Assembly (NCBI GenBank): GCA_020061585.1
Contig: JAGUXX010000118.1
Coordinates: forward strand, 1 to 64,000
DNA length: 64,000 bases
Reading direction: 5' to 3'
From: Betaproteobacteria bacterium
Lineage (GTDB): Bacteria; Pseudomonadota; Gammaproteobacteria; Burkholderiales; Thiobacillaceae
A program made the position numbers and the translations under genes. Of the stretch, positions 10,600-57,569 are shown in pieces (the first letter of the stretch is position 1; every line of letters starts with the position of its first letter). Below the pieces are notes generated by a model. It saw only the letters and a program-made list of their open reading frames with translations. It had not been told where the DNA came from and ran no database searches.

Positions 10600-11199
10600 T
10601 CACGACACTTCCATGGCCCCCACCATGGCTTCGATTTTGATGGCCGATGGCTGCGCGATGCAGGCTGCGCGGCACAGGGCGCAGCCCACACAATGTTCGG
10701 GGTCGATGCGCGGGCGATACATGTCCCAGACTAGCGCACCGGGGATAGGGCAACTGCCTTTGCATGCACCGCATTCCGGGCCTTGGTGGGGCAGACAGGC
10801 ATGTGTGTCGATGGTCACCCGGGCGAAGGGTCGGGGCAGAGCCGAAGGGGCATCCTTCGTGTCTGCCCCCCGCGCGTGTTGCTTTAGCGCGCCTGGTTCG
10901 CAGGCAGCGACACACGGCCATGCCTCACACAAATGACAGCCCTTGTGTAGGAGGTCCATGGCGGGGGTGCCAGCCACGGTGATGCCCAGCCGGGCCGCGA
11001 GGGGAAAGATCACTTCGTGGGGGCAGGCGGCAATACAGGCCCCGCACCGGGTGCAAGCGAGCAGGAAGGCCAGTTCGTCCTGCGCGTAAGGCGGCCGAAT
11101 CCAGTGCGTGGCCTGCCGGGTGACCTTGGCATCGCAAAGCTTGACGATTTTTTCGCCCGTGTTGCGAAAGGCCTGCTGGAAGAATGCGCGGCGATCCAT
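10600..11199 (-). CDS. NapF/NapG-type 4Fe-4S ferredoxin protein
   Basis: MDRRAFFQQAFRN...CTRCGACIAACP...CVGCALCRAACIAQP. Confidence 0.85.
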   Translation of the reverse strand: MDRRAFFQQAFRNTGEKIVKLCDAKVTRQATHWIRPPYAQDELAFLLACTRCGACIAACPHEVIFPLAARLGITVAGTPAMDLLHKGCHLCEAWPCVAACEPGALKQHARGADTKDAPSALPRPFARVTIDTHACLPHQGPECGACKGSCPIPGALVWDMYRPRIDPEHCVGCALCRAACIAQPSAIKIEAMVGAMEVS

Positions 11200-11213
11200 C
11201 GGTGTTCCTTCGG

Positions 11214-12728
11214 TTAAAGGCGCATCAACATCGGCTGCATCAGCAACCAGAGGTTGAAACCGGACATGCCGGCGGCGAACAGCAGCATGGGGAAGAGCCG
11301 CCAGCCCTGACCGGCCCGCTCCGCTTCCAGCAACGCGGCACCGCGCTGGCGCACGATGCGCACGGCGACGAGAAAACCCAGTACCAGCAGGCCGGCTTGC
11401 AAGGCGAAGATCGTGTCCTGCCAGGTGAGCATGTTCATATGGCGTATCTGCTTTTCCGCCATGCTGAAAGGCAGCGCGCTCGTTCCCAGCGGGTTTTGCA
11501 CTACTCGGCTCACACCCGCGCTTTCGCGCACCAGATGATTGAGGTTGTGCGCCATGTGATAGGCAAACGCGAGCGGGAGCGCGGCGAAGGCGAAGGTGGC
11601 CAGGTATCGCTTGAACGGCAGGCGGCTTGGCGTCAGGCGGCGGGTCGCCGCCGCCATGAGGGCATAGACCCCGGCCACGGCGGCGAGGCAGGCCAGAAGC
11701 CCGAGGCTGAAGCTCCACGGCAGGCGGCCGCTGTCGCCGATAACGCGGGCCAGGTCGCGCATCCAGTCTTCCCAGAAGGGCATCATGGACAGCCCGTGCA
11801 GGGCGGTGAGCGCCAGCAATGCGAGCATGAAGACGGCTTCGTCCCACTGCGGGCGCGCGCCCTGTTCGGCCTCGATGCCGGGGGGGCGCAGGCGCCAGGC
11901 AATGTTGCCGTGCGGGCAGCTTTGGGCGCAGTTGCCGCAGGACGTGCAGTAGGTGTTCTGTTGAAGCCGCCCCATCACCAGACCGGTGGGGCAAGGTTCC
12001 ACGATCGCGTTGCCGTGATGGCAATCCAGGGTTTCGCAGCGGGCGCAAAGGTCGGCGTCGATGGGGCGCAGTTCCACCGCCGCCAGTTGCGAATAGGCTC
12101 CCACGGTGCGGCCCACCGGACAGAAGTAACGGCAAAACGCCTTGCGCCGGAACACCGCGAGCGAGGCCGTGGCCAGCACCACGATGAGGAGCGCCAATAA
12201 CGCCGTGGCATAGGGGTCGAGGGTGATGCCCAGGCCGAGTTCGAGCCAGGTCAGGCCGACGAGCAACCCCATGGCTGGCCAGACGCCGCGCAGCCCGCGC
12301 GGTACGCGCAGATTGAGAGAGTTGTTGGGTTCCGCGCGGCCCCCTATCTTTCGTCTGACCAGCCACTGCGCCAGCGCGTCCCAGGGACAGACCGCGCACC
12401 AGGCCGAGCCGAGAAAGAAGATCGAGAACACCAGCCCGCTCCACCACAGGTTCCAGGTCAGCACGCTAGCGAGGTTCCGTTCCGGGATCGACGTGCCGAA
12501 GAGGCCGGCGGCAATCACCAGCAGAAACAGCGAAACCGTCACGAGTTTCAAGGCAAGGCGGATGCCGGGACCGGCTGCCCATACGCGGTTGCCGATCAGC
12601 GGCAGCCGCAAGACCGGCCTGCCCATGCCTGACGCGGCAAGAGGCGCGCGCACGGCCCAGACCAGGGTCAGCAGCATCAGGGCGAGGATGGCCAGTCCCC
12701 AGGATTCCGGCAGCCCCGGATGGGTCAT
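11214..12728 (-). CDS. NapH-like polytopic membrane ferredoxin
   Basis: Multiple TM segments; CARCETLDCHHGNAIVEPCP and CTSCGNCAQSCPHGN. Confidence 0.8.
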   Translation of the reverse strand: MTHPGLPESWGLAILALMLLTLVWAVRAPLAASGMGRPVLRLPLIGNRVWAAGPGIRLALKLVTVSLFLLVIAAGLFGTSIPERNLASVLTWNLWWSGLVFSIFFLGSAWCAVCPWDALAQWLVRRKIGGRAEPNNSLNLRVPRGLRGVWPAMGLLVGLTWLELGLGITLDPYATALLALLIVVLATASLAVFRRKAFCRYFCPVGRTVGAYSQLAAVELRPIDADLCARCETLDCHHGNAIVEPCPTGLVMGRLQQNTYCTSCGNCAQSCPHGNIAWRLRPPGIEAEQGARPQWDEAVFMLALLALTALHGLSMMPFWEDWMRDLARVIGDSGRLPWSFSLGLLACLAAVAGVYALMAAATRRLTPSRLPFKRYLATFAFAALPLAFAYHMAHNLNHLVRESAGVSRVVQNPLGTSALPFSMAEKQIRHMNMLTWQDTIFALQAGLLVLGFLVAVRIVRQRGAALLEAERAGQGWRLFPMLLFAAGMSGFNLWLLMQPMLMRL

Positions 12729-12757
12729 GATGAATGATCCGTCCGCGCTGCAATAGA

Positions 12758-13339
12758 TCATGCGCCAGCCCGCCCGCTACGTTTCTCCGCGCGCGGCAGG
12801 CGCTTCTTCTGCACCAGATTGACACCGATCAGGATGGCGGCGATCACGCCCACGGCGATGCCGAGGGGGCCGACCGACAGGGGTTCGCCGATGCGCAAGG
12901 GGAAATCGATGAGGTAGGGCTCGCCACCCGCCTCGAATTCCGCTGTGATGATGTAGTCGCCTTCTTCCTTGAAGATGAAGCCCTGGCGGTGGGTGTTGTC
13001 ATTGGGGCGCTGCACGCCCAGCACTTCCTTGCGGCTGGGGTGCCAATTGTCCAGCCAGCCGTCGTCGCGCACGCTGAAGGTGATTTCCCCTTCAAAGGGT
13101 GTTCCGTCGTCGAGCCGGGTGGCATAGACGCTGACGCGGCCCGCTTCGTTGGGCTTGGGGAACGCGGGGAAGGCCATGTAGCTGACGAAATACGCGCCAA
13201 TCTGCGTTTCCACCTGCATGCTGGGCGGCGTGTTGGAATCTTCGTTCAGGCTGTAGGTGGGGCGGCCCAGCACATGGTGTGCCCCGGCAAACTGGCAGGG
13301 CAGGAGCACGAGCAGCCATAAGAAAATCAGGTGCTTCAT
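12758..13339 (-). CDS. membrane-anchored periplasmic protein, FixH/YtkA-like
   Basis: Signal peptide MKHLIFLWLLVLLPCQFAGAHH, Ig-like region, C-terminal TM. Confidence 0.55.
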   Translation of the reverse strand: MKHLIFLWLLVLLPCQFAGAHHVLGRPTYSLNEDSNTPPSMQVETQIGAYFVSYMAFPAFPKPNEAGRVSVYATRLDDGTPFEGEITFSVRDDGWLDNWHPSRKEVLGVQRPNDNTHRQGFIFKEEGDYIITAEFEAGGEPYLIDFPLRIGEPLSVGPLGIAVGVIAAILIGVNLVQKKRLPRAEKRSGRAGA

Positions 13340-13971
13340 ACCTTGTGCTTGACCACCGTGCCCTGCGCGCGATCGACGATCCAGATCGGCAGGCTGGGTT
13401 CGGGGCAGACTTCCACGCACAGGCCGCAGCCCACGCATCCGTCCTTGATGACGGGCCGGTACTGGTTCCACATCTCGAAGCCGATGGCCCGCTCGCCCAG
13501 GGGGCAGACGCTCACGCAGGCACCGCAGATGCCGCGATCCACCCAGGGGTAGCAGGCGGCGCGGTCGATCTGGGCGATGCCCATGTCGATCTCGTTCAGG
13601 GGCGTTTCGACCAGGGCCTCGGTGGGACAGGCCACCATGCACTTGTTGCACAGGGTGCAGCCCTTCTCCTCGGGGTTGATCCAGGGCGTATTGACCTTCT
13701 CTCCGCCATCCCGGCTGTGAAAACGGATGCAGCGCGGCGGGCAGACTTCACCGCACAGGCCGCAGCCGATACACGCGGCGACAAAGGCGGCATCGTCCTT
13801 CAGGGCCCCCGGCGGGCGGATGTGGTTGCGTTCGTTGTTGCGTCCGGGGCTGCGTATTTGCGCGCGGGCTTCCGGCGTCGTCAGGCGGGCCATGCCATAG
13901 GGCAGGCTGGCGGCGGCCAGCAGGGCCGCGCCGCGGATCAGGCGTTGCAGTGCGCTACGGCGCTGCATCAA
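13336..13971 (-). CDS. NapG/MauM-type periplasmic ferredoxin
   Basis: Tat-like leader MMQRRSALQRLIRG; four 4Fe-4S clusters CIGCGLCGEVCPP, CTLCNKCMVACP, CGACVSVCP, CVGCGLCVEVCP. Confidence 0.85.
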   Translation of the reverse strand: MMQRRSALQRLIRGAALLAAASLPYGMARLTTPEARAQIRSPGRNNERNHIRPPGALKDDAAFVAACIGCGLCGEVCPPRCIRFHSRDGGEKVNTPWINPEEKGCTLCNKCMVACPTEALVETPLNEIDMGIAQIDRAACYPWVDRGICGACVSVCPLGERAIGFEMWNQYRPVIKDGCVGCGLCVEVCPEPSLPIWIVDRAQGTVVKHKV

Positions 13972-14974
13972 TGGACCCCTTTTCAGAATGGGCGCGGAGG
14001 TATTGTTTGCCCAGGTGGCCGGGGCCTTGTTCCGGGATGTCCGTGGGGCGCAGCACGAAGGTCATGGCCTGGGTGGGGCAGACCGCGATGCAGGCTGTGC
14101 AGTTGTTGCATTCCTGGCCGAAATGGTCGCGCAGCGGGTCGAGGCCGAATTCGCAGACCGCATTGCACTTGGCGCAATCGTTGCAGCTTTCCGCGATGCG
14201 GCGGATGCGCACCAGGCGATAACGGCCCAGCAGCGAATAGAGCGCGCCGCCGGGGCAGACATAGCGGCAGAATCCCCGGCGCGCGACCAGGGTGTCGAAC
14301 AGCAGGGTGCCGACGAAGAACAGCGTGCCGGCCCCGAATCCGCCCAGGGCAATCGCGTAATACAGCTCGCGCCCGACGATGGCGGGCGGATAGATCGCCG
14401 CCATCAACACCGAGCCGGTGGCGGCGGAGAGCAGCAGCCCCACGCCCAGCACCGCGTATTTCAGGCGGCGGTCGAAATGGCGGTTGCCCACCTTGAAGCC
14501 AAGGCGGGAAAGCCAGGTGGAGACATTGGTGTTGAGCTCATACAACAATGTGGCGGGACAGATCCAGCCGCAGAAAAACCGCCCCAGCAGGAGTGTGAAC
14601 AACACGGGAATGAGGGCCGTCAACAAGAACGGCGCATACAGCTTGAGCCCCGCCGCCATCTGCCCGGCTATCGCGAGCGGGTCGCTCAACTGCAAGCCGA
14701 AGAAACTGCCCGACCAGGTGTTGCCCTTGATCGCATCCAGGTCTTCCGCCGGGTCTTCCGTGAAGACGCCGGTGAGGGTTTCCATCACATCGTAGAGCTG
14801 CTTCTCCGCTGGGGCGAGCAGGTCATAGGCATGCGCGGCGGTGAAGGTCTGGTAGACATGCATGAAAGGCAGGGCCACCAGCATCGCGAACACGATGGAA
14901 AGACTCAGCCAGCGCAACTTGTTGAGGTGTCGCCAGAGAAAAAACGGTTTCGGTGTACCCATCGGGTGGCTCAT
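13955..14974 (-). CDS. NapH-type membrane ferredoxin
   Basis: FFCGWICPATLLYEL...GFCRYVCPGGALYSLLGRYRLV...CNDCAKCNAVCEFGLDP...CNNCTACIAVCPTQAM. Confidence 0.88.
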   Translation of the reverse strand: MSHPMGTPKPFFLWRHLNKLRWLSLSIVFAMLVALPFMHVYQTFTAAHAYDLLAPAEKQLYDVMETLTGVFTEDPAEDLDAIKGNTWSGSFFGLQLSDPLAIAGQMAAGLKLYAPFLLTALIPVLFTLLLGRFFCGWICPATLLYELNTNVSTWLSRLGFKVGNRHFDRRLKYAVLGVGLLLSAATGSVLMAAIYPPAIVGRELYYAIALGGFGAGTLFFVGTLLFDTLVARRGFCRYVCPGGALYSLLGRYRLVRIRRIAESCNDCAKCNAVCEFGLDPLRDHFGQECNNCTACIAVCPTQAMTFVLRPTDIPEQGPGHLGKQYLRAHSEKGSIDAAP

Positions 14975-14997
14975 TGAAATTGGCTAACTGAAGTCGG

Positions 14998-15591
14998 CTA
15001 ACCGTAGTCCGGAATGATGCGGATGGCCTGGGGAATCTGGATGCAGGAGCGCTCGCACAGGCCGCAGCCGACGCAATCTTTCAGCACCCGCGGCTGTTCC
15101 AGGCGGCCCACACGGATCGCCACGTCCTGCAAGGGGCAGGCGCGGTAGCAGACGCCGCAGGTCTTGCCCTGATACGACAGGCACAGCCGTTCATCGATCC
15201 GCGCCCGGCCCATGCGCACCTTGCCGAGGATGGGCGCCAGTTCACGCGCCACCGGCTGGATGGCATCGGTAGGGCAGACCTCACCGCACTTCATGCACAG
15301 GATGCAGGCTTGCTCGCGCGGCACGATGTAGGGCGTATCCAGCGAGCGCAGCCCGTTCTCGTGGCCGAAATACTGGATGCAGCGATTGGGGCAGATCTCG
15401 CCGCATTGCCCGCAGTGGATGCAATGCGCCAGGAATTCTTCTTCCGGACGCGCGCCCGGCGGCCTGAGATAGCGGATCGAGCGCGTGGGTTGGCGTGTGG
15501 GCACCCCCGGGCGTGCTTCGGCCAGCAGCGGGCTCAGCGCCGTCGCGGCGGCGGCGCCGAGCAGGGCGTCAAGAAAGGTTCTGCGCTGCAT
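14998..15591 (-). CDS. MauM/NapG-type ferredoxin
   Basis: Tat-like leader MQRRTFLDALLGAAAA; CIHCGQCGEICPN, CILCMKCGEVCP, CGVCYRACP, CVGCGLCERSC. Confidence 0.88.
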   Translation of the reverse strand: MQRRTFLDALLGAAAATALSPLLAEARPGVPTRQPTRSIRYLRPPGARPEEEFLAHCIHCGQCGEICPNRCIQYFGHENGLRSLDTPYIVPREQACILCMKCGEVCPTDAIQPVARELAPILGKVRMGRARIDERLCLSYQGKTCGVCYRACPLQDVAIRVGRLEQPRVLKDCVGCGLCERSCIQIPQAIRIIPDYG

Positions 15592-15627
15592 GGATATTGA
15601 CGCGGAAATTTCTCGACCTAACCCGCC

Positions 15628-18309
15628 TCATATCTTCTCCACGCGCGCCGCGAGTTTCTTGAAGTCCACCTGTCCCGACACCAGATCCCAAACACGGCTG
15701 GAGGTCTTGTTGACCAGCCACTTGTTCTTCTTGGGATCGGCACTGTCGGCCACCGACAGGTTCCAGGGGCTGAACAGATAGCCGCGCGGCACACTGTTGC
15801 GCGCCGGCTTGACCAGGCTGTGGGTGCCGACCTGAGCGCGCGCCTCGAAGAAACCCCGGCGCGTCACCAGGCGAACCTTGTCGCCGTCCTTGATACCGAG
15901 TTCCTTCGCATCCTGCTCGTGCATCTCCACATACATCTCCGGCACCAGGCGCCGCGTGGTGGGGCTGCGGTTCGACTTGGCGGTGTGGAAGTGCTCGTAC
16001 ACCACACCCAGGCCCAGCCAGTAGGGGTATTTGTCCTTGGGCACGGCATCCCAGGACTTGCCCCGGAACTTCATGTCGGGCAGGTCGGGAGTCAAGCCCT
16101 TGTCGCGCGCCTCCTTGAGCAAGGCCAGGTTGTCGATGGTGTACATGCCTTTCTTGACGCCGAACTCCATCAGCTTGGCCGTGATCGCCTCGCGGTCGGT
16201 GTAGTCCTGCTGGCAGAGTTGCATGTGCACCTTGCCGTCCTTGGTGCGAAAGTAGCCGTATGGCCGGTTGGTCCACTGGTTTTCCTGGTTCATGTAGCGG
16301 CGCTTGGTGCCGCCCTCCCGGGCAATCTGGTAGGTCGGGGCGGGCCACATGATGCCCCGTAGTTCGGCAAGCTGTTCGTACGGGCTGAGCTTGTCCGCCT
16401 TTTCCACTTCCAGGATGCCGGTGAGGTCCACATCGGTGCCAGCGCTGGCCCGGCACACGTCGCGGAAGACTTCTTGCGAATCGTAGGTGCCGTCCTTGAG
16501 TTTCTTGTAGGGGAAGATGGCGTCCGCATCCAGGCCCAGCAGGTGGGCGATTTCCTTGCCCTTGTCGATCACCATGTCCATGTCGGGGCGGCAGCCGGGC
16601 GGCGGCTCGGCTGCTTTCTGGTTGATGTTGATGCGTCGCTCCGAGCTGATGTAGGTGCCTTCCACCTCGCCCCAGGTGGCGGCGGGGAAGATCACGTCGG
16701 CATACAGGTTGTTGGGCGCGTGCCGGTAGATTTCCTGCACCACGTTGAAGGTCTTCAGGAGCGCCGGACGCACCAGGTTGTTCTGGTCCGGCAGGTCGAT
16801 GTGGGTGGCATAGACCCAGAACATGGCCTTGAGGTCACCCTTGAGCGCGCGTTCCAGCATGCCGACGGCAAAACCGGGGTTCTGCGAGTTCAGCGCCCGC
16901 TCCAGATTTTTCTCCGGCACGCGCCAGGCCTTGGCCATCTTGAGCCGGTGCAGTGGGTTATCCAGCGGCTCGTTGAACGGCAGCCGGCCGGTGAGGCCGC
17001 CGGTAAAGCGCTCACCCATGGCGTTGGGCTGGCCGGTCATGGAGAACGGGCCGCAGCCGGGTTTGGCCAGGTTGCCGGTCAACGTGCACAGGTTGATGAT
17101 CGAGATGACGTTGTTCTGCCCGTGGATGTGCTGGTTGTAGCCAATACCCCACATCATCAGCACGCCGCCGTGGCCGTCCTTGCCCCGGGCCAGACGCTTG
17201 CGCGTGGCGTCGGCGAACATCTTCGCCACAAGACGAATCTTCTCGGGCGGCACTTCGTCGGTGCCCATTCGGTCTTGCACCTGCTCGGGACTGTAGTGCG
17301 CCAGTACGCCATCCACATATTCCTTCCAGCCGGTGGTATGGGCTTTCAGGAACTTCCAGTCGATCACGTCCTCGTGCTCCTTGAGCAACACGTGGGCAAT
17401 GGCGTTGAGAAAGCTGATGTCACCGTTGAGCACGGGCACATCCACATGGTTTTTCGGGTTGATGTCCGCGTAGCCCTTGCTGGTGCCGGTGTAGCGTGGG
17501 TCGGCCACCACGGTGGAGATGTTGGTTTTTTTCTTGTGGTCGGCGCAGCGCCAGAAAATGATGGGATGCGCCTCGCGGGCGTTGTGCCCGAAGTGCATGA
17601 TCATGTCCGACAACTCGATGTCCTCGTAGGCCATCGGCGGCGTGTCCGAACCCAGGGTCGCGTAATAGCCGGTCACCGCCGAGGTCATGCACATGCGGGC
17701 ATTGGCCTCGATGGTGTTGGAGCCCAGCACGCCCTTCATGAACACGTTCTCCAGGTACTGGCCCTCCATGGTGAGCTGGCCGGAACCGTACAGCGCAATG
17801 CTGTTGCCGCCGTACTTTTTGGCGAAGTGGGCGACCTTGTGCGCCGTCATGTCGGACGCCTTCTCGTAGGGCACGCGCACGAAGTGCTGCTCGTCGAAGG
17901 AACCCTTGGTCTTGCTGATGAAGTCCATGTCACCATGGCCCGGCTTGTTCCATTCCTCCCACACGTCCTTGCGCACATAGGGGTCGCCCTGCATGCGGTC
18001 GACGTAGATCGGCTCGGCGGCGGTCAGGCCCTTGATGCACTGCAAGCCGAAGTTGGTGGGGTGGTCCTTGTCCGGTTGCATGGAGACGATCTTGCCGTTC
18101 TCCGAGATGATGACCGTGCCGCAGCCCACGCCGCAGTACGGGCACTGGGCAATGGCCGTGGTGCGCTTGGTGGCGGCTGCCCCCGGCGGCAGCGGGGCGG
18201 CTTCGAGTTCCGGATTGCCGCCGACCATCAGGCTTGCACCAACGGCGGAACCAGTGATGAAGGCGCTTCCCTTGAGGAAGTCGCGGCGGTGCATTTTGAT
18301 TCGTTTCAT
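15628..18309 (-). CDS. NapA-like periplasmic molybdopterin oxidoreductase
   Basis: Tat leader MHRRDFLKGSAF; 4Fe-4S CPYCGVGCGTVI; NARMCMTSAVTGYYATLGSDTPPMAYEDIE with probable Cys Mo ligand. Confidence 0.85.
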   Translation of the reverse strand: MKRIKMHRRDFLKGSAFITGSAVGASLMVGGNPELEAAPLPPGAAATKRTTAIAQCPYCGVGCGTVIISENGKIVSMQPDKDHPTNFGLQCIKGLTAAEPIYVDRMQGDPYVRKDVWEEWNKPGHGDMDFISKTKGSFDEQHFVRVPYEKASDMTAHKVAHFAKKYGGNSIALYGSGQLTMEGQYLENVFMKGVLGSNTIEANARMCMTSAVTGYYATLGSDTPPMAYEDIELSDMIMHFGHNAREAHPIIFWRCADHKKKTNISTVVADPRYTGTSKGYADINPKNHVDVPVLNGDISFLNAIAHVLLKEHEDVIDWKFLKAHTTGWKEYVDGVLAHYSPEQVQDRMGTDEVPPEKIRLVAKMFADATRKRLARGKDGHGGVLMMWGIGYNQHIHGQNNVISIINLCTLTGNLAKPGCGPFSMTGQPNAMGERFTGGLTGRLPFNEPLDNPLHRLKMAKAWRVPEKNLERALNSQNPGFAVGMLERALKGDLKAMFWVYATHIDLPDQNNLVRPALLKTFNVVQEIYRHAPNNLYADVIFPAATWGEVEGTYISSERRININQKAAEPPPGCRPDMDMVIDKGKEIAHLLGLDADAIFPYKKLKDGTYDSQEVFRDVCRASAGTDVDLTGILEVEKADKLSPYEQLAELRGIMWPAPTYQIAREGGTKRRYMNQENQWTNRPYGYFRTKDGKVHMQLCQQDYTDREAITAKLMEFGVKKGMYTIDNLALLKEARDKGLTPDLPDMKFRGKSWDAVPKDKYPYWLGLGVVYEHFHTAKSNRSPTTRRLVPEMYVEMHEQDAKELGIKDGDKVRLVTRRGFFEARAQVGTHSLVKPARNSVPRGYLFSPWNLSVADSADPKKNKWLVNKTSSRVWDLVSGQVDFKKLAARVEKI

Positions 18310-18355
18310 TGGTCCAGCCCTCCAGGGGTGTGCATGGTCATGGCGATGTTCCCTC

Positions 18356-19024
18356 TCACTGCTTCGCACTCATGGAGCGCATGTAAACGATGATGTCGTC
18401 AATTTCCTGGTCGGACAGGTTGGCCATTGAAGCCGGCCCCTTGAAGCCGAGCATGCGGGTGTTGGAACGGCCTTCCTTGATGGTGGTGCGGATGTAGCCA
18501 TCCGAGACCCGGTCCATGAAACCCGAACGGCCAATTGCCGTGCCTGGCCCGCCCGTCTCATAACCCTCCCCCACGCCGCCGTGGCAGGTGGAGCAGATGT
18601 ATTCGTACCACTGGCTGCCCAGACGCGGGTCGCCCCGCGCCTCTGGTTGCGCATCCACCTCCGCGCTGCGATCCGGCAGGGTGGCGAACGAGCGCAGGTA
18701 GGCAATGATCGCGTTGACATCGTGCTCAACCAGATGTGCGAAGGGGGGCATGCCCGTGCCTTCACGCCCGCCGACGATATTGGCGCGCAGGAAATTGTCT
18801 GAACTGAGGCTCAGGAATTCCGGGTTGGTGAGCGAAGGCGCGAATCCCGCCTTTCCTATCGCGTCGGCCTGATGGCAGGCAGAGCAGTTTTCCTCATAAA
18901 TCTGCCGGCCTTTTTTGATGAGTGCCTGGTCAGCACTGTTTGCCGATAGCGCAAACAAATATAGCGGCATCAATAGAACAGCCTTGCCTGCACTGGATAA
19001 CGCAAACCTGATTGGTTTTTTCAT
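18356..19024 (-). CDS. diheme cytochrome c
   Basis: Signal peptide and two CxxCH motifs (CSACH, CSTCH). Confidence 0.88.
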   Translation of the reverse strand: MKKPIRFALSSAGKAVLLMPLYLFALSANSADQALIKKGRQIYEENCSACHQADAIGKAGFAPSLTNPEFLSLSSDNFLRANIVGGREGTGMPPFAHLVEHDVNAIIAYLRSFATLPDRSAEVDAQPEARGDPRLGSQWYEYICSTCHGGVGEGYETGGPGTAIGRSGFMDRVSDGYIRTTIKEGRSNTRMLGFKGPASMANLSDQEIDDIIVYMRSMSAKQ

Positions 19025-20298: not shown

Positions 20299-21468
20299 AT
20301 GAACACTCACACCATTCAATTTGCTTCCGCGACCACGTGGCCTCCCGTTTCCGACGTCGATCCCATCGTCGGCGGCCGTGTCGAACTGCAACTCCTCACT
20401 ACCCTCAAGTGCAACCTGAAATGCAGCTATTGCTCGCTGGGCGTAGGCGAGGTGCTCGGCACCCAGACCGAGCTGAAATACGACATCGACCAACTCACCG
20501 CCTTCGTCGACAAGCACCTGCGCGACAAGGAGGTCTATGTCACATTCTATGGCGGCGAGCCGACGCTGAACCGGGCCATGATGGAAAACGTCATGCGCCG
20601 TTTTCCGGAATTCCGTTTCCAGTTGCAGACCAACGGCACGCTGTTGGACAGCCTGCCCGACTGGATGCTGCACCGGCTGTCCAATATCCTGGTTTCCATC
20701 GACGGCGGCGAGCAGACCACCGATGGCTATCGTGGGCGTGGTGTCTGGCGCCAGGTGCTGAAGAACGTGGCGCACGTGGGCGACCGCCTCGGCGGCAGTT
20801 TCACCGCGCGGGTGACCTGGGGCCACCCCGACACCGGTTTCGAGGAACTCGACGACCTCGCCGAATCGTTCGATTACCTGTAGTGGCAGTTCGTCGCCGA
20901 CGAGCAGTATTTCGCGGATTCGCTGGACAAGCGCAAAGCCGTTCTGGTCCAACTCATCGACAAGTTCTTCCGCCGCACCGACAAGCTCTACCCGCTGATT
21001 CCGATCATGGGCATGGTGCGCAACAAGGTGTTGCCCAACCGCGCCGTGGAGCGCTATGACGGCCGCACCCAGTGCCGCGTCTCCACCCACCTGATCAACG
21101 TCATGCCGGACGGCAAGATCTTTCCCTGCCCGGACATGATGTACGCGCCCGCCATGCAGATGGGCGAGATTCAGGGCAACTGGCTACAGAAAAGCCCGCT
21201 GCAACCGCATCCCGACATGCACTGCGCCGCCTGCGAGGCCTATGCCTGGTGTCGCGGCAACTGCATGAAGAACCTTTACCTGGGCTATGTTAAGAAGGAC
21301 GAACGCCACCGGGTCAACGTGGTCGAGCCGATCTGCGAACTGGTCCGCTTCATGGGCCGCGAGATCGACCGCCACGACCCGCACGCCTGGTTCGCCCAAG
21401 CCGCGCTGCCGGTGCGCAAGCAACTGATCGACGCGGAGGTTTACGAGTACGTCGAGATCATGCCGTGA
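20299..21468 (+). pseudogene. radical SAM/SPASM protein interrupted by in-frame TAG (20881-20883)
   Basis: CNLKCSYCS rSAM motif, then SFDYL*WQFVADEQYFADSL... continuing in the same frame to SPASM-like C-terminal cysteines (CPDMMYAP, CAACEAYAWCRGNC). Confidence 0.85.
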
Positions 21469-44574: not shown

Positions 44575-45165
44575 ATGAAGCAACGAAATCTGATGGCCGC
44601 CATCGGCCTGATTGCCGCTTGCGCAATGCAAGCTTCTGTCACTCACGCAGCCGATGCCAAGACCGAAAATCTGGCCAACACCTGCAACGCCTGCCATGGC
44701 ATGAACGGGGTCTCGGTCGGCCCCAACATGCCCAGTATTGGTGGGTTGTCCGAGACCTACCTCAATGCCGTGATGCAGCAATGGAAGAATGGTGAGCGTT
44801 ATTCCGCCACCATGGGACGGCATTTCAAGGGCTATAGCGACCAGGAACTGGACGCCATCGCCAAGTATTTTTCGAAATTGCCGTGGGTTCCCGTCGTTCA
44901 GGCCGCAGAGGCCAAAACCCTTGCCCAAGGCAAGGAAGCCAGCGAGCGCTGCGAAACCTGCCACGGTGCCACCGGCAGCGAACCAGACGACGCCGACACC
45001 CCCAGGATCAATGGCCAGTGGGCCGAGTACATGCACCTGGAAATGCTCAAGTACCGCACCGACACGGTGAAGATGCCGCACCGCAAGATGCGCGGCAACA
45101 CCAAGAAGCTCGATGAGTCAGACCTGCTTCCTGTCGCTCAGCACTACGCCGCCCAGCCTAAATAA
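44575..45165 (+). CDS. diheme cytochrome c, sulfide dehydrogenase cytochrome subunit-like
   Basis: Signal peptide, CNACHGMNG and CETCHGATG; immediately upstream of FCSD flavoprotein gene. Confidence 0.8.
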   Translation: MKQRNLMAAIGLIAACAMQASVTHAADAKTENLANTCNACHGMNGVSVGPNMPSIGGLSETYLNAVMQQWKNGERYSATMGRHFKGYSDQELDAIAKYFSKLPWVPVVQAAEAKTLAQGKEASERCETCHGATGSEPDDADTPRINGQWAEYMHLEMLKYRTDTVKMPHRKMRGNTKKLDESDLLPVAQHYAAQPK

Positions 45166-45175
45166 GGAGATATTC

Positions 45176-46492
45176 ATGAACCCGTTCAACCGCCGCGCAT
45201 TCATCAAGGCCGCCATCGCCGCCGCACCGGCCAGCGCCTTCCTCACCCTCCCGAACAACGCCCACGCCGGCAGGAAAGCCAGCGTCGTGGTGGTGGGTGG
45301 TGGCTTCGGCGGCGCCACCGCCGCCAAGTACCTGAAAAAGATGGACCCGGCCCTCGACGTCACCCTGGTGGAGCGTCTCAAGACCTACACCTCCTGTCCC
45401 TTGTCGAATGAAATCCTCACCGGCCACGGCAAGATTGAAGACCTGCAGACCGGCTATGACGGCCTCGCCAAACGCGGCGTCAAGGTCATGTTCGACGACG
45501 CCATCGGCATCGACGCCGCCGCCAAGACCGTCAAGCTCAACAGCGGCACCACCCTGAAATACGACGCACTGGTTCTCTCCCCCGGTATCGACTTCAACTA
45601 CGGCGCCGTCGAGGGCTACAGCGAACAGCTCGCCAACACCAGCCACCCTCATGCCTGGAAAGCCGGTCCCCAGACGCTGGCCCTGAAAAAGCAGATCGAA
45701 GCCATCCCCGACGGTGGCGTCTTCGTGCTCTCCGTGCCGCCCAAACCTTTCCGCTGCCCTCCTGGCCCCTACGAGCGCGCCTCGCTGGTCGCCAGCTACT
45801 TCAAGCACCACGGCAAGCACAAATCCAAGGTGCTGATCCTGGACGCCAACGACTCCTTCTCCAAGAAAGGCCTGTTCGAACAGGCCTGGAAGATGCACTA
45901 CAACGGCATGATTCAGTGGGTGCCCGGCGCCGAAGGCGGCAAGGTCACCAAGATGGATGCCCAGACCAACACCGCCTTCACCGACTTCGGCGAATACAAG
46001 GCCGACGTGCTCAACATCATCCCGCCCCACCACGCCGGCGCCATCGCCAAGAATGCCGGGCTGGCCAATGCCCAGGGCTGGTGCGAGGTGGACATGCTGA
46101 CCATGGAATCGGCGGTACAAAAGGATATCTGGGTCATCGGCGACGCCTGCATCCACGGTGACCTGCCGGTCTACGACGCGCCCAAGTCCGCCCATATCGC
46201 CAACACCCAGGCCAAAGTGGCCGCCGGCGCCATCATCGCCAAGCTCAATGGCGTGCCCGCGCCGGAACCCTTCTTCGTCAACACCTGCTACAGCACCGTT
46301 GCCGACGACTGGGGCTTCTCCGTGGTGCACATCTACCGGGTCGAGGGCGGCAAGCTGGTGTACATCAAGGAAGCCGGCGGCATCAGCCCGGTCAACATGG
46401 CCGACGAGGCCCAGCTGAAGCTGCAGCGCAAGCTGGAGTCGCGCTACGTGGTGGGCTGGTTCAAGAACATCATGGCCGACGCCTTCGCCTGA
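45176..46492 (+). CDS. flavocytochrome c sulfide dehydrogenase flavoprotein subunit
   Basis: Tat-like leader [64 protein letters not shown]. Confidence 0.88.
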
Positions 46493-46505
46493 GGAGATCA
46501 CGACA

Positions 46506-49265
46506 ATGAACATCAATCGACGTGAATTCCTGAAATCCAGCATCGCGGCCAGCACGGCGGCCACGGTGGGAATGCCGCTGTCCGATCAGGCCGAGGCCGC
46601 CGTCAAGGCGGGCGAGAAGGACTGGCAGTGGGACAAGGCGGTGTGCCGCTTCTGCGGCGTCGGCTGCGGCATTATGGTAGCCACCAAGGAAGGCCGCATC
46701 GTCGCCACCAAGGGCGACCCAAAAGCGCCGGTGAACAAGGGGCTGAACTGCATCAAGGGCTACTTCAACGGCAAGATCATGTATGGCCAGGACCGCCTGA
46801 CCCAGCCGCTGCTGCGCATGAAGGACGGCAAGTTCGACAAATCCGGCCCGTTCGTGCCGGTAAGCTGGGATCGAGCGCTGGATGAAATGGAGCGCCAGTT
46901 CCGCAAGACCTACGGCGAGATGGGGCCGGCCGGTATCGCCATGATCGGCTCCGGCCAGCAGACGGTGATGGAAGGCTATGTCTCCAGCAAGCTGATGAAG
47001 GCGGGGTTCCGCTCCAACAATCTGGACAACAACGCCCGCAATTGCATGGCTTCCGCTGTGGCGGCCTTCATGCAGACATTTGGCATCGACGAGCCGGCCG
47101 GCAACTACGACGACGTTGAGCACACCGACACCATCGTCCTGTGGGGCGCCAACATGGGTGAATGCCATCCCATCATGTGGTCGCGCATCACCGACCGGCG
47201 CCTTTCTCACAAGCCCTGTCGCATCGTCAACCTGAGTACCTACCACAACGCCTCGTCCGAGCTCGCCGATCTGGAAATCATCATGAGCCCCAACGGCGAT
47301 CTCGCCATCCAGAACTGGCTGGCCCGGGAAATCATCGCCCGCGACGCGGTGAACTGGGATTTCGTCAACAAACACACCATCTTCGCCACCGGTCCGAGCG
47401 ACATCGGCTATGGCTTCCGCCCGGTCAACGCCGAGAAGTACGCCTATGCCGCCGAGCGGGATGTCGTCAAAAACGAAAGACAGCATGTGCTCGACGCCCA
47501 CGAGGCAATCGGCCAGCGCCGCAAAGCGGGCGAGGCGGTGGAGCAGAAGAACGCCGCCACCCCTGACCGCCACTGGAAGATCGGTTTCGAGGATTTCAAG
47601 GCGGCGCTGGCGCCGTACACCCTGGACTATGTGGCGGAAGTGGCGAAGGGCGATCCGGACGAGACGCCGGAGGCCTTCAAGGCCAAGCTGCAACAACTGG
47701 CGGATCTCTACATTGACGCCAAGCGCAAGGTGATTTCCTTCTGGACCATGGGCTTCAACCAGCACCAGCGCGGCACCTGGGTCAACGAGCAGTGCTACAT
47801 GAATCACCTGCTGCTGGGCAAGCACGCCCAACCCGGCAACGGCGCCTTCTCGCTCACCGGCCAGCCCTCGGCCTGCGGCACGGCGCGCGAGGTGGGCGTG
47901 TTCTCGCATCGCCTGCCATCCGACATGGTGGTGACCAACAAGAAACACCGCGAACACACCGAGCACCTCTGGAATGTTCCGCCACACACAATCAACCCCA
48001 AGGTGGGCACCCATATCACCGAGATCATGCGAGGTCTTGAAGATGGCGCGGTGAAGTGGTGCTGGATCCTGGTCAACAACCCCTTCCAGCATCATCCCAA
48101 CGCAAACCATGCGCTGATGGCGGCGCGCAAGGGCGACAACTTCATCGTTGTATCCGACGCCTATCCAAGCGTTTCCGCCAAGGTTGCCGATCTGGTATTG
48201 CCGGCGGCGATGATCTTCGAGAAGTGGGGCGCCTATGGCAACGCCGAACGCCGCACCCAGCAATGGCGCCAGCAGGTATTGCCCCCGGGTGAGGCGCGGG
48301 CGGATATCTGGCACATGCTGGCTTTCGCCAAGCGCATCCGCCTCAAGGATGTCTGGGGCGAGCAGAAAGTCGCCGGCCTCAAGGCGGAAGGTTTTCCCGA
48401 GGGAAAACTGCCCAGCGTGCTGGGTGAAGCCGGCAAGCATGGCTACGGGCCGGAAACCACGCTTTACGAGGCGCTTTTCGCCAACGATTCGAACAAGAAG
48501 CACAAGTGGCCCGACCCCATCGCCAAGGGCCATGGCAACCATGTGGCCGATCTGCTGGGTGATGGCTGGTTTCCCGAGAAGGCGATGTTCGAGGAATACC
48601 GTACCTTCGGCAGCGGCCATGGCCACGACCTGGCGCCTTTCGACATCTATCACCACGAGGATGTGCGCGGTCTCAGATGGCCGGTGGTGGAGAAGGACGG
48701 CAAATGGGTGGAAACCCTGTGGCGTTTCAACGAGAAATATGATCCCTACGTCAAGCAGGGGACCAGCTTTGATTTCTATGGTGATTTCGCCAAGGCCATC
48801 CCCAGCGGCAATCTGGACGGCGTCACCGATGCCAAGCCGGTTGGCTTGCCGGGCAAGGCAAAAATCTTCTTCCGCCCCTACGCGGCGCCGGTTGAACGGC
48901 CGGATGCGAATTACGACCTGTGGCTGTGTACCGGCCGCGTGATCGAACACTGGCATACCGGCACCATGACCCGGCGCGTTCCGGAACTGCACCGGGCCGT
49001 GCCAGCCGCGGTTTTGTGGATGCACCCGGCGGATGCCGAGAAACGCGGATTCAAGCGCAACGATCTGGTCTGGGTGGAGTCTCGTCGCGGCAAGGTGCGG
49101 GTTCGTATCGAGACCGGTGGGCGCAACAAAATGCCGCGCGGTTATGTGTTTGTGCCTTTCTTCGATGAGGGTGTCTTCATCAACCGGGTCACCCTGGATA
49201 GCAACTGTCCGATATCCAAGGAAAACGACTACAAGAAATGCGCGGTCAAGGTGTACCGGGCCTGA
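46506..49265 (+). CDS. napA: periplasmic nitrate reductase catalytic subunit
   Basis: Tat leader [55 protein letters not shown]; 919 aa. Confidence 0.92.
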
Positions 49266-49287
49266 ATCCAACCAGCGAGGAAATAGC

Positions 49288-49747
49288 CATGAAATTCAAG
49301 ATCGCATTAGTTGCAGCCTTGGCCGCCCTGCTGGGCGGCGGGCTGCAAGCCGACCCGGTGGCGTTGATGGATGACGTGATCGGCCTGTCCAAAACCAGCG
49401 TATTCGACGACCCGGTTCCGCCCGAATTCGCCTACTCGACGCTGGACCCAAAGAAGTCCGGGGTTCTGCCCCGCTTCTGGGATGAAGCGCCGCCGCAGAT
49501 ACCGCATCGTCTCGACAAGTACCTGCCGGTGAACGCCAAGACCAACAAATGCCTGCAATGCCACGACGACCCGGAGGTTATCGGCAAGAAGGTGAAGGGA
49601 AAGCCCACCCCCATGTCGGAAAGCCACTACGCGAAGTCGGAGGACGATGAACTCGTCGTCTCCAACAAGCGTTATGTCTGTACCTTGTGCCATGTACCGC
49701 AGGCCGATGTGGAGGCATTGGTGGGCAATACCTTCAGGGGGGAATAG
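49288..49747 (+). CDS. napB: periplasmic nitrate reductase diheme cytochrome c subunit
   Basis: CLQCH and CTLCH; directly downstream of napA; ATG at about 49288. Confidence 0.88.
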
Positions 49748-52808: not shown

Positions 52809-54995
52809 TTGGACGCTGGTTACGGTGTCCCGATCTACCGGGTGGCTGACACGCCGTCTGGATCACATCTAAAGGCCAGCGATGAACGGGAACTGCTCCG
52901 GCAGCACGCCGCATTTCACCCCATTCTCGAATCAGCGTATCCAGTGGATTCGCTCCCCGAACGCTGGAGCTTGCCGCTTCGAATTCCAGCATGGGCCATG
53001 ATGGAGGCAGTCGCTACCCTTCTCGGTGCCGCCAGTCTGGCCGCTGGTGTCGCTGTCACGATGAGAAGCCTGAGAACCCGCCACATTCGAAGCCCAACAA
53101 TCCCGACAGGCTGGCTTCCGGTCCTATCCGCTGAGTTACTGACGCAGCATCTGGGAGCGGCTTCCTTGATCGCTTCAATTCGGGTGAAGACCGGACTCGC
53201 ACCGACCAACTTCGAGCGGGATTACGGCCAGACGATTGGCCGGTTCATGGATTTTGTCCAGTTGTTGCCGGCTTCGGAATCGCATCACCACGCTCAGCCC
53301 GGCGGGCTGTTGCTGCATGCCCTGGAAACCGCCAATATTGCCCTGCATCTGCGCGGCGCCCAGGTTCTGCCGCCGGGTGTGGCGCCGGAGGACATCCAGC
53401 GACGTGAACATCGTTGGACTTTCGGGGTGTTCCTGGCCGCGCTGATCCACGATGTGGGCAAGCCCTTGGCGGATCTGCACATCGTCATTGCCAAGCAGCG
53501 TGGCGAGGGAACCTGGTCGCCCTTGGCCGGCGCCATGGCCGAGTGCGGCGCTACGCGTTACCGGGTGACGTTTGGAACTTTGCGTGGCACCCCCGATGGC
53601 ACGCCGGGTGTCAGGAGCTATGCCGCCCACCAGCGCATGGGCATCTTTCTGCTGCAGCGACTCGTACCCCAGTCCACGCTGGCGTGGCTGTCGGAAGATG
53701 CGGAAATGCTGTCGCAGCTCACCGCCTTTCTCTCGGGTGAGGATAAAACCAACGCAGTCGCCTGGATCGTGACCCAGGCGGATCGGGAGTCGGTGCGACT
53801 CAACCTGCTCACGGGGCCGCGGACGCGCTTCGCTTCGGCTCGGGCGGTTCCGCTGATCGAACGTCTGATGGAGGCCTTGCGCAGGATGTTGGCGGAAGCG
53901 GGTTGCCTGCCGCTGAACCGCCCGGGTGCGGCCGGGTTTGTGTCGGATGGCCAAGTCTGGTTCGTTTCCAAGCGGCTGGCGGATGAGGTGCGGGTTTATC
54001 TTGCGGCGCACGAGTCGGCTGTGGGCATTCCCGGACCGGAGAAGAACGACCGACTGTTCGATGTTTGGCAGGAATATGGGGCCCTGGTCGCCAATCCTGA
54101 AACCGGCGGTGCGATCTGGCGCGTTCGGGTGCAAGCGGACGGATTCGACCAGGTGCTGACGCTGCTGCGTTTTCCGCTGGAGAAGCTCTATCCCACCCCT
54201 GCGAGCTATCCGGCCAACTTCGCCGGCCGGGTCATTCCACTGATTGATGCGCGCGATTCGTCGCCGATCGCAACGGCCGAAGCGAGTGCCCCGACTACGG
54301 CGGGTGCTGAAATTGGCAGCACTCCGCAGGATGGGGGCAATTTCTCGCCAGGCGTCGTTGCGCCTTCCGGCTTGCCTCCGATGCCGAACCCCGGCGGTGA
54401 GCCGGAGCCGGCGCCCGTTGCAGCAGAGGAATTTCTCGAAGAGGATGACGCCACCCAGTTCTTGCCCAGGCCGCCAGATGGCCACCGCATCGCGCCTATG
54501 CGACTGCCGGACAAACCGCTCAAGCCAGACCGGTTGGCGAAACCCAAGGCCGCCGCCCAAGGGCCTTCCGAGGCTGCCCTGCGTTTCATGGGCTGGCTGC
54601 AGCAGGGGCTGGCCAATGGCAGCATCGCTCACAACGAGACTGGTGCGATGGTGCATTTCGCGGCGGAGGGCATGTTGCTGATCTCTCCCCGTATCTTCCG
54701 GCACTTCGCGGAGCGGTTTGGCGAGAAGGGGGATGGCACGCCTTCTAACCTGCTGGAAGACAAGCTCGGTACCGGCATCCAGCGCGAAGTGATCAAGGCC
54801 GGCTGGCATCTGCTCGGACCCAAGAAGACCAACGTGCACAAGTACCAGGTGGTTCGGCGCAACGGCAAGGGTGGCAGTCAGCTTTCCGTGATGATCATTC
54901 GGGAGCCGCAGCGCTTCATCGAGCCGGTCCCGCCTGCCAATCCACACCTGGTCAGGTCGGATAGTGAACTCGAAACCAAACAGGATCTGGAATGA
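52809..54995 (+). CDS. traI: MobH/TraI_2-type relaxase of an integrative conjugative element (start uncertain)
   Basis: FVQLLPASESHHHAQPGGLLLHALETANIALHLRG...FLAALIHDVGKPLADLHI; followed by traD. Confidence 0.85.
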   Translation: MDAGYGVPIYRVADTPSGSHLKASDERELLRQHAAFHPILESAYPVDSLPERWSLPLRIPAWAMMEAVATLLGAASLAAGVAVTMRSLRTRHIRSPTIPTGWLPVLSAELLTQHLGAASLIASIRVKTGLAPTNFERDYGQTIGRFMDFVQLLPASESHHHAQPGGLLLHALETANIALHLRGAQVLPPGVAPEDIQRREHRWTFGVFLAALIHDVGKPLADLHIVIAKQRGEGTWSPLAGAMAECGATRYRVTFGTLRGTPDGTPGVRSYAAHQRMGIFLLQRLVPQSTLAWLSEDAEMLSQLTAFLSGEDKTNAVAWIVTQADRESVRLNLLTGPRTRFASARAVPLIERLMEALRRMLAEAGCLPLNRPGAAGFVSDGQVWFVSKRLADEVRVYLAAHESAVGIPGPEKNDRLFDVWQEYGALVANPETGGAIWRVRVQADGFDQVLTLLRFPLEKLYPTPASYPANFAGRVIPLIDARDSSPIATAEASAPTTAGAEIGSTPQDGGNFSPGVVAPSGLPPMPNPGGEPEPAPVAAEEFLEEDDATQFLPRPPDGHRIAPMRLPDKPLKPDRLAKPKAAAQGPSEAALRFMGWLQQGLANGSIAHNETGAMVHFAAEGMLLISPRIFRHFAERFGEKGDGTPSNLLEDKLGTGIQREVIKAGWHLLGPKKTNVHKYQVVRRNGKGGSQLSVMIIREPQRFIEPVPPANPHLVRSDSELETKQDLE

Positions 54996-55007
54996 GGGAG
55001 TGTGTCG

Positions 55008-55198
55008 TGATGGGGTTTATCGAAAGAAATGCTGCGAGCTTGGTGGTCGTGCCGGACTGGTCGGAGTTCTGTGCCTGGGTGAAGGATGCCGGATACGGCG
55101 AAGCCTATTTGGATATCAACGACAGTCGTTGCCTGGCTTTGCAGGAGTTGTTCCTGGAAGAAGCGTTCGAGGTGCTGGAAGAGGAGGTAAAGCTATGA
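55008..55198 (+). CDS. small hypothetical ICE protein
   Basis: MGFIERNAASLVVVPDWSEFCAWVKDAGYGEAYLDINDSRCLALQELFLEEAFEVLEEEVKL; between traI and traD. Confidence 0.5.
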
Positions 55199-55428
55199 AC
55201 GTGCAGCCCGTCCAGCTCCAACCCATTTTCGACCGGATCATCGCCAGCCACCGGCCGCGCGCGGTTTTCCTGATTCGTGGCGAGATCGTCTCCTGCCCCG
55301 CCGGCGGCGTGATCGAGGCGCGCCATCTGCAACGGCCGGGGGCCATTTTCGTGGGGACTTATGACTGCGAGGCGAGCGAGGCCATGCTCCTGGATGATCT
55401 GCGCGCCGCTGGGGCCGGGATGGAATAG
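55196..55428 (+). CDS. small hypothetical ICE protein
   Basis: MNVQPVQLQPIFDRIIASHRPRAVFLIRGEIVSCPAGGVIEARHLQRPGAIFVGTYDCEASEAMLLDDLRAAGAGME. Confidence 0.55.
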
Positions 55429-55430
55429 CC

Positions 55431-57569
55431 ATGGACTATCCGGTCGAGAACCTGCTGCGCCGGCCGGTGGAGTTCATCCCGGCCGGGGTGTTCTTCACCG
55501 CTGCCCTGGGCCTGGTTCTAATGCCGGAAACCTTTTTGCTGCCGCCGGTACTCGCCTATCTGGCCGCTGCCGGTCTGGTTTTGCATGCGGGTTGGCGTCT
55601 TGCCCAGGGCAGCCGGCTGTTGCGCTATCAGGCCAATCTCAAACGCTTGCCCCGCTATAGCCTGGCCTCGGAGGCCATTCCCTGGTCGGAGCGGGCGTTG
55701 TTCTTGGGGATGGGTTTTCAGTGGGATCGTCGCCACACCCAGCGGTTGTATGACGCCCATCAGCCCGAGCACCGCGCGCTGCTGCAGCCCAGCATGCTGT
55801 ATCGGGCTGCCAGAAGGCTGGAACGGGGTGTGGAGGGCACGCTGTTCGATGGGCTGGCGCGGATTTCCCGGAGGGATGCCTGGTGGAATCCGCTGGCGCC
55901 GTTGCCGTCGGTAGGTGGTGATCCGGCCATCCATGGTGTGGAGCCGGATGAGGACGCGGTGTGGATGGACCTCTCCGAGCGGGTGGGGCACATGCTGGTG
56001 CTGGGCACCACCCGGGTCGGCAAGACGCGGCTGGCGGAGATTCTCATCACCCAGGACATCCGGCGCGGCGATGTGGTGATCGTGTTCGATCCCAAGGGTG
56101 ATGCCGATCTGTTGAAGCGCATGTATGCCGAAGCCAGACGATCGGGTCGGGAGGGTGAATTTCATTTTTTCCATCTGGGCTACCCGGAACTCTCCGCCCG
56201 CTACAACCCGGTGGGCAGTTTCTCGCGGGTGACCGAGGTGGCCACACGCATCACCAACCAGTTGCCCAAGGAGGGCGAGGGCGCCAACTTCGCCCAGTTC
56301 GTCTGGGGCTTCGTCAACGCGATGTCCAAGGCCATGACCGCCCTGGGCCGCACGCCGTCCTACCAGGACATCTACCACTACGCCAACGACATCGAGCCCC
56401 TGGTGCTTGACTACTGCCAATTCTGGCTCGACCGGGATCCGCGGGCAGCAGGCTGGCGCGAGGAGATCGAAGCGCTGGAGGTGGATCCCAAGTCCCTGGA
56501 CCGGGCCATGAAGAACCGCGACCTGGGCGTGATCAAGCTGCTCGAATACATCCGTGGCAAGGGGCTGCACGATGACACGGCGGCGAGCTTGATGAAGATC
56601 ATCAGCTACGAGCAGAGCTACTTCAACAAGCTGGTGGCCTCGCTGATCCCGCTGCTGGAGAAGCTCACCACCGGCAAGGTGGCCGAGTTGGTCTCGCCGG
56701 ACATGAGCCGGCTGGATGACCGGCGACCGTTGTTCGACTGGATGGGGGTGATCAACCGGGGTGGCATCGTCTACGTCGGCCTGGACGCGCTGACCGACTA
56801 CGAGGTGGCCGGCGCTGTCGGCAACTCGATGTTCTCCGACCTGACCTCTACCGCCGGGCGCATCTACAAGCACGGGGAGACCTATGGCCAATCCGCCCCG
56901 GCAGCCAAGCGGCGCATCTCGATCCACGCGGATGAGTTCAACGAGTTGATCGGTGACGAGTTCATTCCGCTGCTCAACAAGGCGGGCGGCGCCGGCTACC
57001 AGGTGGCGGTCTATACCCAGACCTGGTCCGACGTGGAGGCGCGCATCGGCTCCCGCGCCAAGGCCGAGCAGATCGGCGGCAACCTCAATACGTTGATCAT
57101 GTTGCGGGTGAAGAACACGGATACCGCCAAGATTCTTACCGACCAACTGGACGAGGTGGAACTGGTCACCAGCATGAGCGCGAGCCAGGCGTCGGACAGC
57201 AACAATCCGCTGGATTTCTCCGACTTCACCAGCCGCAACGAGGATCGGCTCAGTGCCCGCCTGGGCCCGATGATCGGACCGGCGGATCTGGTGCGCCTGC
57301 CCAAGGGCCAGGCCTTCGCGCTGATCGAGGGCGGCAAGCTCTACAAGTTGCGTATGCCGCTGCCGGATGCCGCCCACGACCCGATGATGCCGGAGGATCT
57401 GGCTGCAGTGGCCGAGGACATGCAGTCGAGATACCTGCGGGTTACGCCGGGTGAGTTCGCGCCCGGCTCGGGCTGGGGCTCGGGCTTGGTAATGGGCGAT
57501 GCCAATCCAAGAGCCGACGACGATTGGCTGCGGCAAGCCGTCGTGGAGGGCAAGGGCAGTGACCTTTAA
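55431..57569 (+). CDS. traD: conjugative coupling factor TraD
   Basis: VLGTTRVGKTRLAEILITQDIRRGDVVIVFDPKGD; long-form ICE TraD. Confidence 0.92.
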   Translation: MDYPVENLLRRPVEFIPAGVFFTAALGLVLMPETFLLPPVLAYLAAAGLVLHAGWRLAQGSRLLRYQANLKRLPRYSLASEAIPWSERALFLGMGFQWDRRHTQRLYDAHQPEHRALLQPSMLYRAARRLERGVEGTLFDGLARISRRDAWWNPLAPLPSVGGDPAIHGVEPDEDAVWMDLSERVGHMLVLGTTRVGKTRLAEILITQDIRRGDVVIVFDPKGDADLLKRMYAEARRSGREGEFHFFHLGYPELSARYNPVGSFSRVTEVATRITNQLPKEGEGANFAQFVWGFVNAMSKAMTALGRTPSYQDIYHYANDIEPLVLDYCQFWLDRDPRAAGWREEIEALEVDPKSLDRAMKNRDLGVIKLLEYIRGKGLHDDTAASLMKIISYEQSYFNKLVASLIPLLEKLTTGKVAELVSPDMSRLDDRRPLFDWMGVINRGGIVYVGLDALTDYEVAGAVGNSMFSDLTSTAGRIYKHGETYGQSAPAAKRRISIHADEFNELIGDEFIPLLNKAGGAGYQVAVYTQTWSDVEARIGSRAKAEQIGGNLNTLIMLRVKNTDTAKILTDQLDEVELVTSMSASQASDSNNPLDFSDFTSRNEDRLSARLGPMIGPADLVRLPKGQAFALIEGGKLYKLRMPLPDAAHDPMMPEDLAAVAEDMQSRYLRVTPGEFAPGSGWGSGLVMGDANPRADDDWLRQAVVEGKGSDL

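Follow-up and report, generated by a model that had tools for sequence, protein, structure and literature searches.

On the minus strand of the window (the whole stretch of 64,000 nucleotides analysed, from a Tepidiphilus draft genome), eight genes are packed nearly end to end between positions 10600 and 19024. NCBIfam and Pfam confirm the set described in an earlier note made from the sequence alone, with small corrections to the starts of the genes for the cytochrome c, the enzyme, G2, the FixH-like protein, H2 and G3. The first gene (18356..19024) encodes a diheme class I cytochrome c (Pfam Cytochrom_C/Cytochrome_CBB3), whose two CxxCH motifs are both kept across 85 family members; it is probably the electron carrier to the molybdoenzyme encoded next to it. 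This catalytic subunit, a Mo-bisPGD/4Fe-4S enzyme of 893 amino acids (15628..18309), identified by Pfam, trees and an active-site alignment of 96 orthologues, has a Tat signal (RRDFLK), an N-terminal 4Fe-4S domain, molybdopterin domains (Pfam) and the molybdenum ligand Cys207. It is followed by G1 (14998..15591), a NapG/MauM-type polyferredoxin with conserved Cys motifs (NCBIfam NapG, 124.8 bits against a cut-off of 269), and by H1 (13955..14974), a NapH-type membrane ferredoxin (NCBIfam NapH, 148-149 bits against cut-offs of 213-234) that is probably part of a quinol dehydrogenase. G2 (13336..13968) is a second NapG-type polyferredoxin with conserved Cys motifs (NCBIfam NapG, 88 bits). Then come a FixH-like protein (12758..13339) with a signal peptide, an Ig-type beta sandwich and a C-terminal membrane helix; H2 (11214..12728), a long NapH-like membrane ferredoxin with a weak NCBIfam NapH match (E 5.6e-7) and Pfam Fer4_5; and G3 (10600..11199), a third polyferredoxin of NapG/NapF type (NCBIfam NapG, 96 bits), kept in 62 family members. 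H2 carries conserved His in its C-terminal helices as well as further conserved motifs, and these His-rich helices are possibly heme or quinone related. The NCBIfam and Pfam assignments thus bear out the repetition of NapG/NapH modules that had been proposed for this locus.

The operon had also been said to lack napB, napC and napD. For the Tepidiphilus copy this stands: neither ORFs nor NCBIfam nor Pfam reveal any of the three inside the operon (the scope of the statement for napD), which has no space for them, and NapC/NirT (Pfam PF03264) has zero matches across the whole draft genome. For most relatives it does not extend to NapC, as 35 of 49 long loci have a NapC/NirT-family gene beside or within the operon. 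Of the two forms of quinol module, napC or napGH, the window has the NapG/NapH-like genes. A radical SAM/SPASM-type gene beside the operon (20299-21468) is broken by an in-frame TAG codon (20881-20883), and in Tepidiphilus sp. J10 (L056) it likewise matches as two separate pieces.

The FixH-like protein resembles FixH in fold class only, and no Pfam family, FixH (PF05751) included, matches it even at E 5. Its model (pLDDT 88.8) shows an Ig sandwich and a membrane helix. The best PDB matches found by Foldseek, both modest, are the copper proteins CrdA (E 6.5e-4) and PmoD (E 1.1e-3). These copper-binding Ig-fold proteins have the same fold at sequence identities of 13% and 10%. His21-His22, which would form the N-terminus of the mature protein once the predicted signal peptide is removed, are invariant (62 of 62 members). 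The protein is probably a metal-binding assembly or electron-transfer accessory; that the metal may be copper is a lead only.

The catalytic subunit reaches 313.5 bits against the NapA model TIGR01706 (cut-off 930.55) and 327.8 bits against PRK13532 (cut-off 904), while a canonical NapA encoded in the same window (46506-49265) scores 1287-1320 bits, above both cut-offs. Its closest solved relative is Desulfovibrio desulfuricans NapA (E 2e-77). In our main tree (35 rows, LG+C20+F+G4, bootstrap/SH-aLRT) NapA (11 rows) and Nas (14 rows) are each monophyletic at 100/99, the operon enzyme falling outside both, and the operon family (8 rows) is recovered at 100/100 on a stem of 1.98 changes per site. 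The Nas labels were given by position and, for the subset of annotated rows, also by neighbourhood. NapA, Nas and the operon family form three separate groups whose mutual order the tree does not resolve; a quick tree of 68 rows agrees. The earlier view of an uncharacterised operon, Nap-like yet diverging from canonical NapA, was to be abandoned if the enzyme nested inside NapA; scores support this view, and in both trees the enzyme lies outside. Furthermore, the twin-arginine motif is invariant in the orthologues, which sets them apart from cytoplasmic Nas with no signal peptide. The catalytic subunit thus represents a third deep branch within the Nap/Nas group.

The active site combines retention and replacement. 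For D. desulfuricans NapA, a 2026 review (PMC13223375) lists Arg354, Asp155, Glu156 and Asp355 as charged channel residues, Arg354 being a candidate nitrate-binding site. The equivalents of Lys49, Gln111, Cys140, Met141, Asp155, Thr344, Gln346 and Arg354 of that enzyme are invariant in the 96 orthologues. Of the four charged channel residues, two have changed in almost every member, Glu156 to Thr (96/96) and Asp355 to Phe (90/96), and Tyr500 is another fixed substitution in the channel region. Overall, conservation reaches 97% or more at 426 of the 893 positions. An AlphaFold model of the enzyme, built on an alignment of 17 close relatives, was unusable (pLDDT 38.7). The earlier note had quoted a peptide of the enzyme as evidence of a different substrate pocket. 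Its differences from the canonical NapA of the window are real, but its E-x-HP motif is common to Desulfovibrio NapA (GSNTSEAHPVLFRR). Gly, Asn and Glu of the motif are all present in it, so the peptide taken alone does not speak for a new substrate, and the equivalents of the Mo-Cys, Met, Asp155 and Arg354 are invariant; the real pocket changes, at Glu156 and Asp355, lie outside it. Because the enzyme, which would work like NapA, nevertheless fails as a NapA by score, by tree and at these two channel residues, we file it as a variant within the Nap/Nas group and not as NapA.

The closest described systems are NapA, the assimilatory Nas enzymes and the known nap operons, besides CrdA and PmoD for the FixH-like protein. 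With NapA (the monomeric D. desulfuricans enzyme and NapAB) the operon enzyme has in common Tat export, the 4Fe-4S cluster and Mo-Cys, the Cys-Met pair and the Asp155 and Arg354 equivalents, and the operon has NapG/NapH partners; however, identity is about 30%, the diheme cytochrome c is not NapB, and NapD is missing from the operon. NasA, NasC and NarB resemble the operon enzyme in the pocket (Asp, then a residue other than Glu; NAMG.R..GGL) at about 30% overall identity and 35-42% over the core. Unlike these, the operon enzyme would be exported and quinol-linked, and no flavoprotein or NirBD partner was seen. Known nap layouts include napEDABC, napDAGHB, napCMADGH and napAGHBFLD (PMC13223375). 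The operon family likewise uses napG, napH and often napC, but differs in its order (cytc-A-G-H-G-fixH-H-G), its duplicated G/H genes and its Ig-fold protein without a Pfam family. We found no description of the family in open-licence papers, term searches of Wells 2023 (PMC10100899) included, which is weak evidence of absence.

The genome that the window comes from is Tepidiphilus-like, and an identical catalytic protein occurs in Tepidiphilus sp. J10. Among the same-genus genomes examined there is one other carrier (G002, which may be the same record as L056), the rest being without the operon enzyme. In a sample of the phylum, orthologues at 71-77% identity were found in 11 of 399 genomes, that of the window counted, and 193 stretches encoding orthologues emerged when GTDB species genomes were scanned. 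The best 80 of these 193, at 76-84% identity with one at 100%, come from Gamma-, Alpha- and Betaproteobacteria, many of them from oxygen-minimum zones, vents and the deep sea. Four carriers are cultured: Photobacterium profundum, P. indicum, Shewanella benthica and S. gelidimarina. Most loci of sufficient length retain the order cytc-A-G1-H1-G2-fixH-H2-G3, although H2 is not recognisable in some alphaproteobacterial loci. This conservation of gene order in dozens of species, with a catalytic subunit at 71-84% identity, excludes chance. The eight genes recur with little change in scores of bacteria from the sea, vents and low-oxygen sites, and standard annotation misses the operon. The Tepidiphilus copy was probably gained horizontally: genes of a conjugative element lie about 34 kb from the operon (52809-58287), and, as the operon is also patchy in the genus, a mobile element may have carried it in. 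A plasmid collection contained no orthologue above 60% identity. The conjugative genes encode a TraI_2 relaxase/helicase, a TraG/TraD-type coupling protein and a DUF4400 protein. Two loci have a further diheme-type cytochrome c (L095:8190 and L102:3283), with 32-35% identity, between G1 and H1.

The neighbourhood provides additional clues on function. Recurrent neighbours are MoaA, MoeA, molybdate transport, FNR-type regulators and YyaL-type proteins. NarX-like sensors (PilJ + HisKA_3, domains tested on one sensor) adjoin five operons, mostly with a NarL-like regulator also among the called ORFs. In a single locus (L096, genome G860) the operon is next to nirS, in the arrangement napC-[operon]-moaA-nirS-nirECFDLGHJN, where the cytochrome d1 match is NirS and, among the heme d1 genes that follow, NirJ is above its cut-off. 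Across the loci we saw neither a recurrent neighbour marking another substrate nor an autotrophic nitrite-oxidation neighbourhood. Perfect FNR boxes (TTGAT-N4-ATCAA) stand upstream of 17 of 82 operons against 0.71 expected from random stretches of the same loci, and boxes with one mismatch upstream of a further 22 of 82 (3.2 expected). No good FNR box was found upstream of the window copy. A candidate sigma-54 promoter there was unconvincing, with two mismatches.

We also surveyed other nitrate-reduction genes in 80 carrier genomes (30 + 50, carriers only), mostly draft MAGs. NapA is present in 27 (once split over two contigs) and NarG in 12 (some as fragments), so that 35 of 80 have one or the other and neither was found in 45; such absences from MAGs are weak evidence, and low-oxygen lifestyle confounds co-occurrence. 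NirS-strength d1 matches (at least 465 bits) occur in 25 of 80 carriers, 12 of them without a NapA or NarG match. In the first 30 carriers, NirK is above its cut-off once, and four have NrfA. The Tepidiphilus genome has two NapA, two NarG and one Nas-type enzyme besides the operon enzyme.

Taken together, sequence and context favour, with some confidence, a periplasmic, quinol-driven dissimilatory nitrate reductase of a third deep Nap/Nas lineage. Quinol would be oxidised by NapH/NapG, or in most relatives by NapC. Electrons would then pass to the diheme cytochrome c, in place of NapB, and on to the 4Fe-4S cluster and the molybdenum site, where an oxyanion would be reduced by two electrons, nitrate giving nitrite. 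The operon would be under anaerobic, FNR-type control, as the control boxes observed in relatives suggest. Nitrate is, on balance, the likeliest acceptor. It is favoured by the conserved equivalents of the Mo-Cys, Met, Asp155 and Arg354, the FNR boxes, the NarX-like sensors, the nir-linked operon, the NapC gene in 35 of 49 loci and the NirS carriers without NapA or NarG. Against it stand the Glu156 and Asp355 replacements, the very long stem (about 2 changes per site), the NapA or NarG already present in many carriers (Tepidiphilus included), nirS adjacency in one locus only and a window copy without a good FNR box. The suggestion of the earlier note that the substrate may not be nitrate is possible, yet the quoted motif gives no evidence for it, and the context points, without proof, to nitrate.

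In an alternative scenario, with perhaps a little over a quarter of the probability, a Nap/Nas ancestor was recruited as a respiratory reductase for a different oxyanion or oxide, such as selenate, chlorate, iodate, tellurate or an unrecognised acceptor. The long stem outside NapA and Nas, the fixed Glu156Thr, Asp355Phe and Tyr500 of the channel region, the NapA or NarG found alongside it in 35 of 80 carriers and the new partner proteins would all fit such a change, but the enzyme keeps the Cys-Met pair of nitrate-reducing NapA/Nas and their Asp155 and Arg354 equivalents, NarX-type sensors and a nir cluster adjoin the operon, and a recurrent neighbour for another substrate is missing from the loci. 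A broader version, which we regard as slightly less probable still, sees a widespread respiratory reductase family spread horizontally in marine, vent and low-oxygen Pseudomonadota, using a non-nitrate oxyanion, perhaps an unrecognised one, through a dedicated chain that includes the copper-type Ig-fold protein. The enzyme could also be nitrate-related without serving respiration, or could run in reverse, for instance oxidising nitrite or balancing redox with NapG/H as a quinone reductase; we consider this improbable. Sequence fixes no direction for NapH/NapG modules, the enzyme is redundant with the other nitrate reductases of Tepidiphilus, and purified NapA is able to oxidise nitrite (PMC13223375); NapC-type quinol dehydrogenases and FNR boxes, however, go with reductive anaerobic respiration, and the surroundings expected of autotrophic nitrite oxidation are not seen. 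A canonical nap operon minus napB, napC and napD, as the NapA-like fold family and the NapG/H partners might suggest, is very improbable given exclusion from the NapA clade (100/99), NapA scores at one third of the cut-off and a gene set of its own conserved over dozens of species, score and tree ruling out its simple form.

The curated NapA and NarG models miss the operon family by a wide margin. Nitrate reducers may therefore be undercounted where low-oxygen waters, vents and oil reservoirs are surveyed, or denitrifiers misread as being without the first step. Should the acceptor be something other than nitrate, scores of species would carry a respiration that lacks an assignment. With one operon, a fixed gene set and cultured carriers, the question is testable either way.

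In the window (44575-49747), canonical NapA is accompanied by a NapB-like protein and preceded by a PdsA-like cytochrome c and by a protein distantly like type III sulfide:quinone reductase. It is 72% identical to the second NapA, on another contig, the pair forming a branch of its own. In a Thiotrichaceae MAG (L125:725-7000), canonical NapA with NapG/NapH-like and NapB-like matches adjoins the new operon. Finally, in three carrier genomes (G886:C220, G897:C107 and G908:C102) canonical napA lies beside the nir cluster, at the site that the new operon occupies in G860.
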